From: Rhodohalobacter halophilus
Lineage (GTDB): Bacteria > Bacteroidota > Rhodothermia > Balneolales > Balneolaceae
Assembly: GCF_001715195.1 (NCBI RefSeq)
Contig: NZ_MDWE01000030.1
Span: 1 to 58,878, forward strand
Length of the DNA stretch: 58,878 nucleotides
Reading direction: 5' to 3'
Shown here piece by piece: positions 962-28,344 of the stretch (positions are counted from its first letter, which is position 1; each line of letters begins with the position of its first letter). A program made the position numbers and the translations under genes. The notes under the pieces are model-generated. The model saw nothing but the letters and a program-made list of their open reading frames with translations, made no database searches and was not told where the DNA came from.

Positions 962-1792
962 CTAATCATTCGGAATCATCATCAGCGGCACGGCGGCAAC
1001 CTGAGCCAGAACGCGTGCATTGCTTCGTGTGATCAGCCATTCGATGAATCGTTTTCTGTGGCGTGTGGTTACCAGGATAGTGTGCTGATCCCCGCCAATC
1101 AATCGCGTAATTCCCTCGAAGAATGATTTGTCTTCATAATATTCAATTTCCAGATCAGGATCCTTGAGCTCCTTACTTAACTTCTTCTGAAATTTTTTCC
1201 CCTTCTCTTCGCGGCGCTCTTTTTTCTCCACGATGTGAACAATTCTCAGCTTCACACCCAGCTCAATCGACAGCTTTTTCATCTGTTTTATCGGCTTGAT
1301 GTCTTTCTCGCGCAGTGCGGTTGCAAACACAAGCTGTTTCGGCTGACGATAATCGATCCGTTTGGAGATGGCAAACACCGGAATCGGACTCTCCAGCAGA
1401 ATGTTGTTGGTGATGCTGCCGTAGAGTGCTTTCTTCAGATCGTGCTCTCCGCCAAGTCCAACGATAATCATATCAAATTTACCGGTTTCGGCTGCATTCA
1501 CAAACATGGTGGATGGATTTCCCACTTCCACGGTTCCTTTCATCCGGATGTGTCTGAACTCATCGGTAGAGTGAAGCCCGTCAATCAACTCTGCTAATTT
1601 ATCGGCACTCTCTTTCTTCTTATTTTCAAGCACCTCCTCCACACGGGAGGGAAAATCGTACGGCTGTTCTATTACATGCATGAACAGAATCTGAGCATCG
1701 GTGTAGGATGCTATTTCACAAGCATAGCGTACGGCAATTTCCGACTTACTCGAAAAGTCGGTTGGAACCAGTAAAGATTTTATTTTTGACAT
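962..1792 (-). CDS. Tandem-domain universal stress protein (UspA family)
   Basis: A 276-residue cytoplasmic protein with two Usp (Rossmann-like) domains, about residues 3-145 and 150-275. The first domain carries the ATP-binding signature G-2x-G-9x-G-S (Gly112, Gly115, Gly125-Ser126). The second lacks a complete copy, so only the N-terminal half is predicted to bind nucleotide. Proteins of this type are induced by starvation or stress; their targets are generally unknown. The start is well supported: a full AAGGAGGT ribosome-binding site (bases 1801-1808 on the complement) sits 8 nt upstream of the ATG, which is unusually strong for this window. It is divergently placed from polA, sharing a 98-bp upstream region. 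The family is certain; the role is inferred. Confidence 0.9.
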   Translation of the reverse strand: MSKIKSLLVPTDFSSKSEIAVRYACEIASYTDAQILFMHVIEQPYDFPSRVEEVLENKKKESADKLAELIDGLHSTDEFRHIRMKGTVEVGNPSTMFVNAAETGKFDMIIVGLGGEHDLKKALYGSITNNILLESPIPVFAISKRIDYRQPKQLVFATALREKDIKPIKQMKKLSIELGVKLRIVHIVEKKERREEKGKKFQKKLSKELKDPDLEIEYYEDKSFFEGITRLIGGDQHTILVTTRHRKRFIEWLITRSNARVLAQVAAVPLMMIPND

Positions 1793-1890
1793 GGAATCGT
1801 ACCTCCTTGGAATGATCGGGATCTATATTCTGTGTTGATCATCGTAAATCATATCTTCAGGTAAAAATAGCAAATAAGTAAGCGTAAAAA

Positions 1891-4626
1891 ATGGCGAAAA
1901 AGAAGTTATATCTACTCGATGGAATGGCCCTTGCCTACCGGGCTCATTTTGCATTCATCAACAGCAGGCTCAAAAATTCGGAAGGAATTGCCACAGGACC
2001 CATTCTGGGTTTTGCCAATACGCTGGTGAAATTGCTGGAAGAGGAGGAACCGACTCATATCGCGGTTGCCTGGGACACCCATGCACCAACGTTTCGGCAC
2101 GAGATGGATGAGGAGTATAAGGCAAACCGACCTCCACAGCCGGAGGAGCTGAAGGTGGGAATTCCACTCATCAAAGAGATGATTGACAAGTTTGGAATCG
2201 ACAATATTGAACAGGACGGATACGAAGCTGACGACATTATCGGAACCATCGCTTACAACGCACAGGCCGAACATGTGGATGTCTACCTGGTTACGCCCGA
2301 CAAAGATTTTATGCAGCTCGTGGACGATCACATTACCATGATCAAACCGGATAACAAGAATGGCGGATTTATCGTGATCGATCGAGACGGTGTTCAGGAC
2401 TATTTTGGTGTCGGCCCGGAAAAGGTGATCGATGTACTGGCCATTATTGGGGATACGTCAGACAATATCCCCGGAGTGAAAGGGATCGGTAAGAAGGGAG
2501 CACCCAAGCTGATCAATAAGTACGGTTCGCTGGAGAAAGCGATTGAAGAAGCACCAAACATGAAATCAAAGAGGCATCGTACAGGGTTAACCGAATATGC
2601 CGAACAGGCGATGCACGCCAAGGAGATGGTGAGCATTAAAATTGATGTGCCGGATGTACAGCCTTGGGAAGATCTCGCCTGGGAAGGGCCGGATAAGAAG
2701 GAGCTGGGTCTCTTTTTTAAACGGATGGAGTTTCGAACACTGACAAGAAAGTATCTTGGCGAAGAGCCCGGCGGACAGGGAACTCTTTTTGCTTCAAACG
2801 ATGAGGAGAATGAAAACGGATCACTGAATGAGGATGCTGTTGCATACAACCTGGCAGTTACCGAAGAGGAGATTTTGGCAGTTGTAAAGCAGCTCGAGAA
2901 TGCCGAAGCCCTCTGTTTTGATACCGAAACAGACAGCCCGGATCCGATTTCCGCAAAGTTGGTGGGTATTTCGCTCTGCGCCAAGCCCGAGGTGGCATGG
3001 TATATCCCGGTAAATGTTGAAGATGCCCTCCTTCAGGGTGAGGTGCTGGAACTCTTGAAGCCGCTCTTTGAAAACGCCGATAATCGGAAAATTGCACACA
3101 ACTACAAGTTTGACTACCTGGTTCTGAAGAGAGCCGGGTTTACGATTCGGGGTGAGATTTTCGATACCATGGTTGCCGGATACCTGCTGGATGCCAACCA
3201 GCGGCTGAAGATGGACTCTCTGTCGAAAAAATATCTGAATTATGAACCGGTCTCAATCGAGAGTTTGATAGGTAAAGGGAAGAAGCAGAAGTCGATGGCT
3301 GATATCCCCTATAAAGAGATTTCAAACTATGCGTGTGAAGATGCCGACATCACCTATCGACTCTATGAAAAATTTATCGAAGAGCTGGAAGAAGATGAGC
3401 TGCTGAGTATTGCTAATGAACTGGAGTTCCCCTTGATAGAAGTGCTGGGCGACATGGAGGAGAAAGGCATAAAAATTGATGTTGATATGCTTGAGGCATT
3501 CTCCAAGGATCTGAGTAACGATATCGAAAAAATTGAGAAGGAGATCTTTGAGAAAACAGGAGAGGAGTTTAATCTCAACTCTCCAAAGCAGCTTGGGGAA
3601 GTACTGTTTGAAAAGATGGAGATTCCGGCCGGTAAAAAGACAAAAACAGGGCAGTATTCCACGTCAGAGTCGGTGCTATCGGGTCTGGCCAATGAGTATG
3701 AAGTTCCGGCATTGGTACTGGACTATCGCAGTCTTTCAAAATTGAAATCGACCTATGTGGACGCCCTGCCTAAACTGGTTAACCCGGAGACCGGGCGTAT
3801 TCATACCGATTTTAACCAAACCGTGGCGGCAACAGGGCGCTTGTCATCATCCAATCCCAACTTGCAGAATATTCCGATCCGTACTGCAAGAGGTCGTGAA
3901 ATCCGAAAAGCGTTTGTTCCCGCTGATGGTTTTCAGTTGCTGGCTGCCGACTACTCTCAGGTTGAACTGCGGGTGATTGCCTCCATTTCCGGTGATGAAA
4001 ATATGATTGAGGCGTTCAAGAATGGAGAGGATATTCACGCAAGAACGGCCAAAGAGATTTTCAACCTGGAATCGTTGGAGGAAGTTACTCCAAATCAGCG
4101 CCGTAAAGCGAAAGAGGTGAATTTTGGCATTCCATACGGTGTGAGCGCTTATGGATTAGCCTCGAGGCTGGGAGTCAGCAATTCGGAAGGGAAGGAGATG
4201 ATCGATCAATATTTTGAGAGATTTCCGGGAATTAAAACCTACATCGACGAAACGGTAGAGTTTGCCAAAGAGCACGGATATGTCTCTACACTCATGGGGC
4301 GAAGGCGGTACATACCGGATATCAACTCCAGAAACTGGAACGTCAGAGGGTTTGCGGAGAGAACGGCAATCAATATGCCGATACAAGGAACCGCCGCCGA
4401 TATCATCAAACTGGCGATGATTCAAATCCACGACTATCTGAAAGAGGAAAATGCGCAGTCAAAGATGCTGCTCCAGGTGCATGATGAATTGATCTTTGAG
4501 ATTCATAACGATGAGAAAGAGCAGCTTCCGGAAAAGATCAAATCGTTGATGGAAAATGCCTATAAGCTGCAGGTTCCGCTGGATGTTGAGATGGGCCTCG
4601 CAGACAACTGGCTGGAAGCACATTGA
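1891..4626 (+). CDS. polA: DNA polymerase I
   Basis: A 911-residue family A DNA polymerase for Okazaki fragment processing and repair synthesis. Three domains are seen in order. The 5'-3' flap exonuclease occupies about residues 1-290 (YKANRP, and GDTSDNIPGVKGIG helix-hairpin-helix). The 3'-5' proofreading exonuclease occupies about 320-505 and keeps its metal ligands: DTE in Exo I, HNYKFD in Exo II, YACEDAD in Exo III. The polymerase domain occupies about 530-911, with motif A DYSQVELR, motif B RRKAKEVNFGIPYG and motif C QVHDE. Intact Exo motifs predict active proofreading, unlike the Taq-type enzyme. The length is usual for the family. The ATG has no strong Shine-Dalgarno. The gene stands alone and converges on a lipoprotein gene. 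Confidence 0.98.
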   Translation: MAKKKLYLLDGMALAYRAHFAFINSRLKNSEGIATGPILGFANTLVKLLEEEEPTHIAVAWDTHAPTFRHEMDEEYKANRPPQPEELKVGIPLIKEMIDKFGIDNIEQDGYEADDIIGTIAYNAQAEHVDVYLVTPDKDFMQLVDDHITMIKPDNKNGGFIVIDRDGVQDYFGVGPEKVIDVLAIIGDTSDNIPGVKGIGKKGAPKLINKYGSLEKAIEEAPNMKSKRHRTGLTEYAEQAMHAKEMVSIKIDVPDVQPWEDLAWEGPDKKELGLFFKRMEFRTLTRKYLGEEPGGQGTLFASNDEENENGSLNEDAVAYNLAVTEEEILAVVKQLENAEALCFDTETDSPDPISAKLVGISLCAKPEVAWYIPVNVEDALLQGEVLELLKPLFENADNRKIAHNYKFDYLVLKRAGFTIRGEIFDTMVAGYLLDANQRLKMDSLSKKYLNYEPVSIESLIGKGKKQKSMADIPYKEISNYACEDADITYRLYEKFIEELEEDELLSIANELEFPLIEVLGDMEEKGIKIDVDMLEAFSKDLSNDIEKIEKEIFEKTGEEFNLNSPKQLGEVLFEKMEIPAGKKTKTGQYSTSESVLSGLANEYEVPALVLDYRSLSKLKSTYVDALPKLVNPETGRIHTDFNQTVAATGRLSSSNPNLQNIPIRTARGREIRKAFVPADGFQLLAADYSQVELRVIASISGDENMIEAFKNGEDIHARTAKEIFNLESLEEVTPNQRRKAKEVNFGIPYGVSAYGLASRLGVSNSEGKEMIDQYFERFPGIKTYIDETVEFAKEHGYVSTLMGRRRYIPDINSRNWNVRGFAERTAINMPIQGTAADIIKLAMIQIHDYLKEENAQSKMLLQVHDELIFEIHNDEKEQLPEKIKSLMENAYKLQVPLDVEMGLADNWLEAH

Positions 4627-24911: not shown

Positions 24912-26024
24912 CTACTGATACAATACCCGGTCTGTCAGAACGACAGTGACTCCAAATAGGGTTAAAAAAGTTAGGCTAAGCACCGGTTCCCATATCACAA
25001 AGCCCCCAATGAGCCCTAAAACAGCTCCTAAATACTGAATAATTTTGAGCTGTTCATTGGTTGCATTTTTGATCATCTGTTCAAGCCGCTGTTCATCATA
25101 ATTCCTCAAATTTTCTTGCACAAATTTCTGAATATCGAGCCGGTTGACCAGCTTGTAGATCAGATCGGTAATGATCCGATCGAGCTCTTCAGAAACTTCA
25201 TCCAAACGCTCCGGAAGTTCATCGAAAAATTCATCCACAAATCCGAAGTTTCTCTCTACCGTTATGGGCAGATCCACAACCGATTCTTCAATTAAACGTT
25301 GAAGTGTTTGGCCTTTCAAAAGAGTGTAGGTTTTGAGGGCTGTTCGCTCAATCGGCTTCTCTTTCAGGCCGGCTTCAATCTCTTTGGAGAGGTAGAAACT
25401 GACCCGCTCCCTGAACGAATCATCATGAACCACAGAGTGAACATAATCCACTATCCACTCTTTAAAATCCTCTCGGAATGTCTCTTTACCAACGGAGCTT
25501 ACCAGGCTGTTCTGGATCTGCTCTCTATAGGTTTGAATGATCTTCGACTCCTCAATTTTTAATTTGATGAGCTTTGGGTTGATCAAGTCTTCAGCAACCG
25601 CTGTAGAAAGCCTCCAGGCGATACGATCCTTCTGTGCAGGAATCAAGCCTTGGCCAAGCAGCGGTCTTCGATTTAGCGGTCGAAAGAGCATGGTGATAGC
25701 AATCCAATTGGTCAGAAACCCGATCATACCGCTCACGCTAATAATTCGCAGCAGGCCATTTAGCGGAAAAACATATCCAAACAGGCTGAATTGTAGATTT
25801 GGGAAGTCCCAGAAGAAAGAGAAGATAAAAAGGAGGATGAGCAGGTAAGGAATAGGCTTGAGGAACAGCAGAAGCTTCAGGGATGAGCTCTTCTTAGGCG
25901 GTTCTGATCCCGGATGTTGAACAGAATCCGGCAGCTCAATGGTCAAATGGCGTGAGAGGATTGATTTTAGATCTTTTCCTTTTCTATCCTCATCAGGCTG
26001 AATATTCTTACTGATTTCGTTCAT
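24912..26024 (-). CDS. DUF445-family membrane protein
   Basis: A 370-residue inner-membrane protein. After a polar N-terminus of about 50 residues come a hydrophobic pair (about 50-72 and 78-110) and the family signature GFLTNWIAITMLFRPLNRRPLLGQGLIPAQK. A long charged helical region (about 140-320) follows, then two C-terminal membrane segments (about 328-366). The family (YheB/YjiN-like) has no established function. It is the last of four minus-strand genes with tight spacing (40 bp after the topoisomerase-like gene) and is probably expressed with ybeY. Confidence 0.88.
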   Translation of the reverse strand: MNEISKNIQPDEDRKGKDLKSILSRHLTIELPDSVQHPGSEPPKKSSSLKLLLFLKPIPYLLILLFIFSFFWDFPNLQFSLFGYVFPLNGLLRIISVSGMIGFLTNWIAITMLFRPLNRRPLLGQGLIPAQKDRIAWRLSTAVAEDLINPKLIKLKIEESKIIQTYREQIQNSLVSSVGKETFREDFKEWIVDYVHSVVHDDSFRERVSFYLSKEIEAGLKEKPIERTALKTYTLLKGQTLQRLIEESVVDLPITVERNFGFVDEFFDELPERLDEVSEELDRIITDLIYKLVNRLDIQKFVQENLRNYDEQRLEQMIKNATNEQLKIIQYLGAVLGLIGGFVIWEPVLSLTFLTLFGVTVVLTDRVLYQ

Positions 26025-26064: not shown

Positions 26065-27429
26065 TCACGAGAGAGCCTCACGGATAGTTTCAGCAGTTGC
26101 GCTGCCATTAGCAGACAAGCTGTTCAATCTACCGATATCCTTCGCAAATGAGGAGCCGTCGTTCAGATAAGGGGTCAGATACTTGCCGGGCTTCACCGTA
26201 GTATTTTCTATTTCGATGTAGTTCTCAGCTTGCCAGCGATCCATCTTTTTGCCGAATGAGGAGGGTGACTGGACCTGCAGTTGATGGAGAAGAGCCCCTG
26301 TTTCAGAGATGGTTCTGACCGGCATCAACTCCGTTGAGGGGGCTACGGAGTCCTCAACAGGAAGGTAAAAATTGGTATCGGGATGAAAAGGAGTTCGGTA
26401 GGCGTTGTACTTCTCTTTAGGTACCGAGATGGCTTTGATCGTGTGGCGGTAGATCAGCGCATACAGATCCCTCAGTGTGCTCAGAAGCTCTCCGGATACG
26501 GATTCCGGTGTGTGGGGCAGGTTGAGCGGGTAGATGCTCTCATGGGCGACCTCACTTCCGGCAATATTCCGGATGAACATCGGTTTGAATTCATGATCTT
26601 TCTGAACTCTGTAAAACTGCTTTTGAAGTTCACCCCAGGTTTCGCTGAAGTAGGAGTTGGCAGCGGTGCGCGGGTAGCTGATAAGGGATTCATCACTCAG
26701 TTCGAGGGTGTGTGTAAACAACTGCTGGAGTGATTCTTGTGCATTAGCCAGCGAACTAAAAAGTTGCTGCTCAATGGCTTTTTCTAACAGATCAAACGTA
26801 GAAAGGGGAGAGACGGAGTGATATTCCGATTCATCAACCAAGTCCTTTAGCGGTATCCATTCATCGGGATTACAGCGAATGGGCTGGCTTGAGATCCAGC
26901 GCCGTTCGGATTGGTCCTTGAAATTTCGAAATGGGAAATGGCTGGAAAAAACGGAAGCCAGTGCGGCGATCTGCATCGATGGCCGCCGGCCGCCCAATTT
27001 CCATTGATGGCGAATAAGAGATCGATTTTTTAACCTCAGTTCCAGATGATCCGGCTGTATGACTTCCGCCTTACTGATGAGCCTCTCAATTCCTCTTCGT
27101 CCCAAATGTTGAATGTAGGATCGTTTAACAGAGGGATCTTTCAGAAACTTGAAAACTGACCATGCGATGAAATCACCCGATGGATCAGAGTCTGTAGCGA
27201 TGATGACATTTCCGGCCCAGCTTGCCTGTTGTTTCAACTCTTTGCGGAATCCGAGTTGGTCGGGATCTGCAATCGCTTTTAACTGATGTTTGCCGGGGTC
27301 ATAAACCGGTTTCCAGGCGTAACCGCTGGTAGACATTACATAGACTGAGGAGGGGGCATACCGCTGAATGATTCGGGCAATAACCGGGGATTCAACAATC
27401 AGGAGGGTATAGGTTGCCGAGGCATTCAC
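26065..27429 (-). CDS. Compact, divergent type IA topoisomerase-like protein
   Basis: 454 residues, about half the length of TopA. An N-terminal Toprim domain (IVESPVIARI at 11-20, ATDSDPSGDFIAW at 78-90) is followed by a shortened type IA core. The core has the GRVQS-like segment GGRRPS (146-151), the strand/helix region PLSTFDLLEKAIEQQL (208-223), the catalytic-tyrosine motif SYPRT (Tyr252, Arg254) and a degenerate HEAIRP-like HESIYP (His296). Compared with E. coli TopA, Glu9, Asp111, Asp113, Tyr319, Arg321 and His365 have counterparts, but Lys13 is Ile17 and Glu115 is Ser84. There are no C-terminal zinc ribbons. It overlaps ybeY by four bases. Relaxing activity is uncertain; it may be a paralogue with a narrower or non-catalytic role. 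Confidence 0.8.
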   Translation of the reverse strand: MNASATYTLLIVESPVIARIIQRYAPSSVYVMSTSGYAWKPVYDPGKHQLKAIADPDQLGFRKELKQQASWAGNVIIATDSDPSGDFIAWSVFKFLKDPSVKRSYIQHLGRRGIERLISKAEVIQPDHLELRLKNRSLIRHQWKLGGRRPSMQIAALASVFSSHFPFRNFKDQSERRWISSQPIRCNPDEWIPLKDLVDESEYHSVSPLSTFDLLEKAIEQQLFSSLANAQESLQQLFTHTLELSDESLISYPRTAANSYFSETWGELQKQFYRVQKDHEFKPMFIRNIAGSEVAHESIYPLNLPHTPESVSGELLSTLRDLYALIYRHTIKAISVPKEKYNAYRTPFHPDTNFYLPVEDSVAPSTELMPVRTISETGALLHQLQVQSPSSFGKKMDRWQAENYIEIENTTVKPGKYLTPYLNDGSSFAKDIGRLNSLSANGSATAETIREALS

Positions 27430-27899
27430 GATGAGTTTTTCAAAGCTTCCAGGTATTGATCCTCAAGATCCGTCATAAGCTGTTTCTCTTTTGGTGTTTG
27501 ATCATCGTGGCCCGCCAGGTGTATCAATCCGTGCACAAAGACTCGCAAAAATTCGGTTTTCATGTTATCATCAAACTCTGCACTCTGTTCTGCAATACGG
27601 GGAGCACAGCAGTAAAGGGTTCCTTCAATGGCTTGAGAATCGTTCTCATCATGGCGGAATGTGATGATATCGGTAATATAATCGCGGTCGAGGAATTCGT
27701 GGTTAATTTTAACGATCTCCTCTTCGTCAACGTAAACCAATTCGATCTCTTTATAGCGAACATCCTCGCTCTTTTCAACAATCGTAATCAGTTTTAGTAG
27801 CTCGCTCTCCTCAACCGGTACACTCTCTCCGGACTCATTATTGATAATCAATTGATCATTCGGCTCGGTCGGGATGTCAGGAAAGTTCGTCATCGTCAA
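27426..27899 (-). CDS. ybeY: Endoribonuclease YbeY (rRNA maturation)
   Basis: A 157-residue UPF0054 metalloprotein that acts in 16S rRNA 3'-end processing and ribosome quality control. The zinc-binding motif is VHGLIHLAGHDD (H-x3-H-x5-H variant: His residues of VHG, IHL and GHD), followed by the family's KEKQLM helix. The central RDYITDIITF corresponds to the usual KPTDVLSF. The segment that is normally LGDIVIC is changed to EGTLYCC, a modest divergence. It overlaps the upstream 155-aa gene by 23 bases and the downstream topoisomerase-like gene by four, so translation of all three is probably coupled. Confidence 0.92.
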   Translation of the reverse strand: MTMTNFPDIPTEPNDQLIINNESGESVPVEESELLKLITIVEKSEDVRYKEIELVYVDEEEIVKINHEFLDRDYITDIITFRHDENDSQAIEGTLYCCAPRIAEQSAEFDDNMKTEFLRVFVHGLIHLAGHDDQTPKEKQLMTDLEDQYLEALKNSS

Positions 27900-28344
27900 A
27901 AGAGAAATTATCCAGATCGGCAGTATCCGTCAGAGACATGGCTACACCACACATCATCAGATCTTCAGGCAGTTTGGTGAAATCACCCTTCAAGACGGCC
28001 TCATTCACATTGGCATACATACTGCAGCCTGCACTCTCTTCCACAATCAGTCCGGTAGTGTTGATACCGTTTTTTCCGAAAAATGTAACCTGCTTCAGAA
28101 TATCGCTGGCAATGAAAGCGGTACAGTTATGAAGTTGTAGAAATGTGCTCCCCGAGTAAACAGAAACCATATTCATGCGCTCGTCATCCACTTCAAGGCC
28201 TAAGTGAATTTCCAGAGCCAGTCTGTTTCCTGCTTCTGAGTTTACAACCTCAAACCTGAAAACATCATCACCCAGAGGTTTGGGTTCAGCATTCAGGATT
28301 TCTCCGATGGTTGTGATGTTCTCTTTGGTAAATTCGTGAATCAT
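27877..28344 (-). CDS. Uncharacterised 155-aa protein at the head of the ybeY operon
   Basis: I do not recognise a family. It is a soluble, acidic protein without a signal peptide or membrane span. Predicted alternating strands (FRFEVVNSEAGNRLALEIHLGLEV, MVSVYSGSTFLQLHNC) and a conserved-looking segment FIASDILKQVTFFGKNG suggest a small alpha/beta fold. The C-terminus is very acidic (DDDELS). The coding sequence overlaps ybeY by 23 bases, strongly suggesting coupling and a role tied to RNA or protein quality control, but that is inference from context only. Confidence 0.75.
   Translation of the reverse strand: MIHEFTKENITTIGEILNAEPKPLGDDVFRFEVVNSEAGNRLALEIHLGLEVDDERMNMVSVYSGSTFLQLHNCTAFIASDILKQVTFFGKNGINTTGLIVEESAGCSMYANVNEAVLKGDFTKLPEDLMMCGVAMSLTDTADLDNFSFDDDELS

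Follow-up and report, generated by a model that had tools for sequence, protein, structure and literature searches.

We analysed the gene of a half-size type IA topoisomerase-like protein (sTopo), encoded next to ybeY in Rhodohalobacter halophilus, in the window, i.e. the whole 58,878-nucleotide stretch of contig NZ_MDWE01000030.1, and in related genomes. The features of the locus are collected in Table 1. The reading frame of sTopo is uninterrupted, and its junction with ybeY reads GTGA, which is the 4-base overlap (27426–27429) described in an earlier note made from the sequence of this DNA. The neighbouring protein P155 was without a Pfam or NCBIfam match; it is present upstream of ybeY across the order and is the slowest evolving among the four operon genes compared. 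PADLOC returned no match, and Rfam none within the window.

Table 1. Features of the sTopo locus (positions in the window; residue numbers are those of sTopo, with E. coli TopA equivalents where named; counts refer to 41 aligned members)
Feature	Position	Strand	Remarks
sTopo, half-size type IA topoisomerase-like protein	26065..27429	(-)	454 aa, GTG start, 42 carriers in the order
Toprim domain, residues 8-103	27121..27408	(-)	Pfam PF01751, 34.5 bits
ESPVI, residues 13-17	27379..27393	(-)	Glu9 kept 41/41; Ile at Lys13, Lys in 0/41
DSDPSG, residues 80-85	27175..27192	(-)	DxD kept; Arg114 to Pro, Glu115 to Ser
ISYPRT, residues 250-255	26665..26682	(-)	catalytic Tyr252 and Arg254, 41/41
His296, equivalent of His365	26542..26544	(-)	41/41
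SPSSFG, residues 388-393, remnant of the TopA GRPSTYA segment	26251..26268	(-)	
ybeY	27426..27899	(-)	PF02130 and TIGR00043; 4-bp overlap with sTopo
P155, 155-aa protein, conserved neighbour upstream of ybeY	27877..28344	(-)	
DUF445 membrane-protein gene, conserved neighbour directly downstream of sTopo	24912..26024	(-)	PF04286

In single-sequence searches the Pfam model Topoisom_bac scored 37.7 bits, above its cut-off of 35.1, in a partial match over positions 123–253 of a 411-position profile, and some family members score under this cut-off. The NCBIfam model topA_bact (TIGR01051) matched all 37 sTopo members scanned, with a score for sTopo itself of 50 bits that lies below the curated cut-off of 456.4. 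Profile–profile alignment of 41 sTopo relatives with nine TopA sequences spanned residues 1–565 of E. coli TopA (EcTopA) with a probability of 99.9 and an E value of 3.8e-36. In this register I17 corresponds to Lys13, Y37 to His33, D80 and D82 to Asp111 and Asp113, P83 to Arg114, S84 to Glu115, Y252 and R254 to Tyr319 and Arg321, and H296 to His365; the earlier placing of Ser84 at Glu115 and of Ile17 at Lys13 is thereby borne out. The note had also judged the core to be about 100 residues short and the zinc-ribbon tail to be missing, in agreement with a core that is some 110 residues shorter than the corresponding part of EcTopA and with the absence of Pfam matches to the zinc ribbon, Topo_C_ZnRpt or Topo_C_Rpt. 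The protein ends soon after an RPSxxG-like segment, and neither Pfam nor the profile alignment recognised C-terminal T-strand-binding repeats past SPSSFG. An AlphaFold2 model built from two sequences only had a pLDDT of 34.6.

Overall, sTopo has the hallmarks of the superfamily, namely the Toprim Glu with DxD, a catalytic Tyr with Arg two positions on, and the relay His. It shares with bacterial TopA (E. coli TopA, TIGR01051) profile homology over the four-domain core, six core residues, the Ser after the Toprim Glu and the RPSxxG-like segment, but it is 454 rather than 865 aa long and lacks Lys13, His33, Arg114, Glu115, the DxDREGE and SAGRVQS motifs and the C-terminal domains with their Topo_C repeats, so that, with its score below the TIGR01051 cut-off, it falls outside the bacterial TopA equivalog. 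Where TopA has Met after the catalytic Tyr, sTopo has Pro (40 of 41 members), a feature described for topoisomerase III (TopB) and not for bacterial topoisomerase I (PMC10969213). Unlike TopB, however, sTopo has no Lys directly after the Toprim Glu, this position being Ser14 in all 41 members, and TopB profiles score much more weakly than those of TopA. As Lys13 is also missing, sTopo is without both known active-site lysines.

Residues were counted in an alignment of 41 sTopo members, which share 24–73% identity with the window protein. The equivalents of Glu9, Ser10, Asp111, Asp113, Gly116, Tyr319, Arg321 and His365 are invariant (41/41), and the family has gained new invariants at W39, P41 and R62. 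The Lys13 position holds I, L, M, V or T and the His33 position Y or F; Arg114 is replaced by P (38 members) or A (3), and Glu115 by S (37) or A (4). SAGRVQS, intact in the chromosomal TopA sequences, is missing. These losses are common to all aligned members, which agrees with the earlier view that more than simple truncation has taken place. All six core catalytic residues lie within the 17 invariant columns of 454, an outcome with a chance of about 1e-9. sTopo has thus lost auxiliary residues, and the six that mechanistic papers regard as the core of the active site (equivalent to Glu9, Asp111, Asp113, Tyr319, Arg321 and His365) are intact.

In characterised enzymes the metal site consists of the Toprim Glu and two Asp, the Arg contacts the scissile phosphate and the His takes part in a proposed proton relay (PMC7587558, PMC6101483); Glu115 is not listed among the metal ligands in either paper. 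EcTopA Lys13, which differs from the lysine used by topoisomerase III, has been reported as required for cleavage, yet it was distant from the scissile phosphate in the EcTopA structures then available (PMC6101483). The note had correctly seen the SYPRT motif and the Toprim Asp pair as kept (Y252, R254, D80 and D82, each 41/41). Its further statement, of changes in the key residues for metal binding and transesterification, needs to be divided: Lys13 and Glu115 are indeed lost, but Glu115 is no described ligand, and no member departs from the metal-binding Glu and DxD, the catalytic Tyr, its Arg or the relay His. Residue 86 was considered as a replacement third acid and rejected, since it is D or E in 33 of the 41 members and another residue in eight.

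The R. halophilus genome encodes a full-length TopA on another contig (contig 25; 848 aa counted from the Met; motifs DEDREGE and TYMRTDS), and sTopo is therefore not the main enzyme but a divergent paralogue, as the note had proposed. Since this TopA exists and the homologues of sTopo do not restore Lys13 or Glu115, the ground on which the note would have given up that proposal falls away. A sequencing artefact, or a role as the main TopA, was likewise rejected in view of the full-length TopA and the 42 carriers. No topB was found in this genome, where the topB model matches only the TopA of contig 25.

Among 128 genomes from the order, which is probably the salt-loving Balneolales, 42 carry sTopo. 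They comprise 26 of the 28 genomes of the window genus, five genomes in three other genera of the same family, nine in family f2 and two in family f5; the two genomes of the window genus without sTopo are 57% and 64% complete. Most carriers also show a full-length or partial TopA, and where a carrier has a single Topoisom_bac match, either TopA is absent from an incomplete assembly or sTopo lies beyond the reach of the model. Profile searches found no further members in the class (244 genomes) or in a 394-genome sample of the phylum, with complete members scoring about 387–645 bits and the best ordinary TopA 91. Relatives were absent from viral contigs searched with the alignment and from phage records searched with the window protein, and the plasmid search returned only distant short forms and TopA. 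As far as sampled, sTopo is confined to one order. We found no description of such a half-size form in the open literature searched, which covers part of publications.

Nearly all members have full-length open frames. Among the three closest genomes dN/dS was about 0.09 for sTopo, a rough ratio because dS is close to saturation and was computable for one sTopo pair, and about 0.013–0.015 for TopA. Codon differences in sTopo fall mostly at third positions (0.50–0.60, against 0.18–0.22 at first and second positions), and, genome for genome, dN is higher for sTopo than for TopA by a factor of 3.5 to 8. sTopo is thus under purifying selection but fast-evolving. A decaying relic without function would fit the fast divergence and the absence of sTopo from many sister genera; it is nevertheless barely credible, given that a dN/dS of this order indicates that the gene is maintained, that the frames are full-length and that the catalytic residues are invariant.

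Wherever the contig allows a check, carriers have the gene order P155 – ybeY – [smg] – sTopo – DUF445. The optional gene smg (DUF494; matches of 4e-12 and 6.8e-10 in two members) sits between ybeY and sTopo in family f2 and in genus g36 of family f5, while smg is present and sTopo absent in families f3 and f4 and in the other f5 genera. Non-carriers of family f1 have ybeY followed by DUF445; a supposed sTopo remnant in one non-carrier (G069), in a gap of about 500 bp, was rejected because the tblastn matches, from a very small search space, had E ≥ 0.003. One f1 genome bin (G073) does have smg; since it contains two unlike ybeY loci, the first accompanied by smg and the second by sTopo, it is probably contaminated.

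The arrangement bears on the suggestion, made in the earlier note, that sTopo acts on RNA together with YbeY. RNA can be a substrate of type IA enzymes (PMC7587558, PMC10969213) and the ybeY–sTopo overlap is tight in the window genome's own family, but in f2 and g36 smg separates the pair, non-carriers keep ybeY and DUF445 in the same operon without sTopo, and proximity within an operon says little about function. We consider such a partnership very unlikely, and the suggestion found no support; the conserved neighbour pattern points to smg–topA and not to ybeY.

Within the class, smg is limited to this order (33 of 244 genomes), and in the phylum sample it was found in 93 of 394 genomes. Its gain by transfer from Proteobacteria, an idea that followed the class search, was dropped as smg occurs in many other families of the phylum. 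In 18 of 18 genomes of other families, chosen since their coordinates placed smg and topA on one contig, a full-length topA comes immediately after smg, on the same strand and closely spaced. A few genomes (G364, G459, G479, G511 and G520) have the two genes on different contigs, and the linkage is therefore common but not universal. Neisseria has the order dprA–smg–topA (PMC5817196), and E. coli has smf–smg–yrdD, with yrdD annotated as a putative topoisomerase. The smg–topA pair was found in this phylum although smg had been placed only in Beta- and Gammaproteobacteria in 2017 (PMC5817196).

Trees divided the TopA proteins of the phylum into two groups: all 18 smg-linked TopAs fell into the first, the housekeeping TopA of the order into the second. 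A genome of the same class (G163) has open frames of 699 and 894 aa for two different TopAs, which suggests that both lineages can coexist in one genome. sTopo forms one clade (support 100/99 to 100/100). A profile of the smg-linked lineage outscored that of the housekeeping lineage in 39 of 41 members (means of 45 and 31 bits), and hhalign gave 214.5 against 183.3, the two profiles having been built from sets of unequal diversity. Placement of sTopo by tree was abandoned owing to long branches and to the AU test, which rejected its union with neither lineage (p-AU 0.308 and 0.326). Because smg is followed by full-length topA in all 18 other-family genomes, we propose that sTopo is probably a shrunken descendant of smg-linked TopA; with neither tree placement rejected, this descent rests mainly on gene position. 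Like those TopAs, sTopo lies directly downstream of smg in f2 and in g36; unlike them (open frames of 734–819 aa in which all TopA motifs are expected), it sits on a long branch outside their group.

A different origin was raised by a search with the window protein, which led to a 544-aa Bosea plasmid protein and from there to a set of plasmid topoisomerases of 516–545 aa, several of them accompanied by MPF_I-type transfer genes. sTopo is thus not the only type IA protein of about half the usual size. The short proteobacterial plasmid forms (e.g. WP_069052547.1, WP_224754149.1 and WP_011345644.1) make up a clade separate from sTopo, but they share SYPR with it and are likewise too short for the C-terminal repeats; they score nearly as well against it as the smg lineage does (mean 43 bits), and a tree split sets them together with sTopo against the long forms (98/92). 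Capture of such a gene into the chromosome, which would be compatible with either an active enzyme or a pseudoenzyme, is nonetheless unlikely: Lys13 and Glu115 are still present in the plasmid forms, as is GRV or GRI in most of them, long branches make their join to sTopo unreliable, and sTopo occupies the slot behind smg, where topA is found in other families of the phylum.

For the function of sTopo, we favour, as an evenly balanced proposition, a minimised, fast-evolving paralogue from smg-linked TopA that may keep weak, non-processive cleavage and rejoining of single strands. The unlinked full-length TopA would do the housekeeping, sTopo most likely being the descendant of the smg-linked enzyme. 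Tyr252 would attack a single strand, the tyrosyl-transfer chemistry being probably kept; Arg254 and a metal bound by Glu13, Asp80 and Asp82 would stabilise the scissile phosphate, and His296 would relay a proton. An enzyme that has lost Lys13, its SAGRVQS grip and the T-strand-binding domains at the C-terminus would be expected to show weak, non-processive cutting and rejoining of single-stranded nucleic acid instead of supercoil relaxation. We infer this retained catalysis from residue invariance only. A remodelled type IA enzyme, shifted away from supercoil relaxation to the breaking and rejoining of ssDNA or RNA without either lysine (for example a nicking-closing enzyme specific for one of the two) and linked to smg, appears quite unlikely.

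Counting against retained cleavage is Lys13, required in EcTopA (PMC6101483) and absent in every sTopo member. This also speaks for a pseudo-topoisomerase, i.e. an ssDNA- or RNA-binding accessory protein with the TopA-core fold that would bind single-stranded nucleic acid without cleaving it because Lys13, Arg114, Glu115 and the GRVQS grip are gone. The family-wide loss of these residues and of His33, together with the rapid divergence of sTopo, makes such a protein possible, although we regard it as doubtful: a protein that only binds would have no need of the Tyr, Arg, His, Glu and two Asp, yet all 41 members keep them.

If active, as the favoured reading has it, sTopo would represent a naturally minimised type IA enzyme, working without the active-site lysines of TopA and topoisomerase III, without Glu115 and without the whole T-strand-binding tail, and it would reveal what is dispensable in the active site and the gate. 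It would equally provide a natural test case for why cleavage by EcTopA needs a lysine remote from the scissile phosphate. The smg–topA linkage in other families of the phylum offers a comparative handle on the function of smg. In Dolichospermum phage Dfl-JY45, a topoisomerase homologue at 1507–3488 is annotated as two overlapping hypothetical ORFs, reflecting either a split gene or a frameshift.
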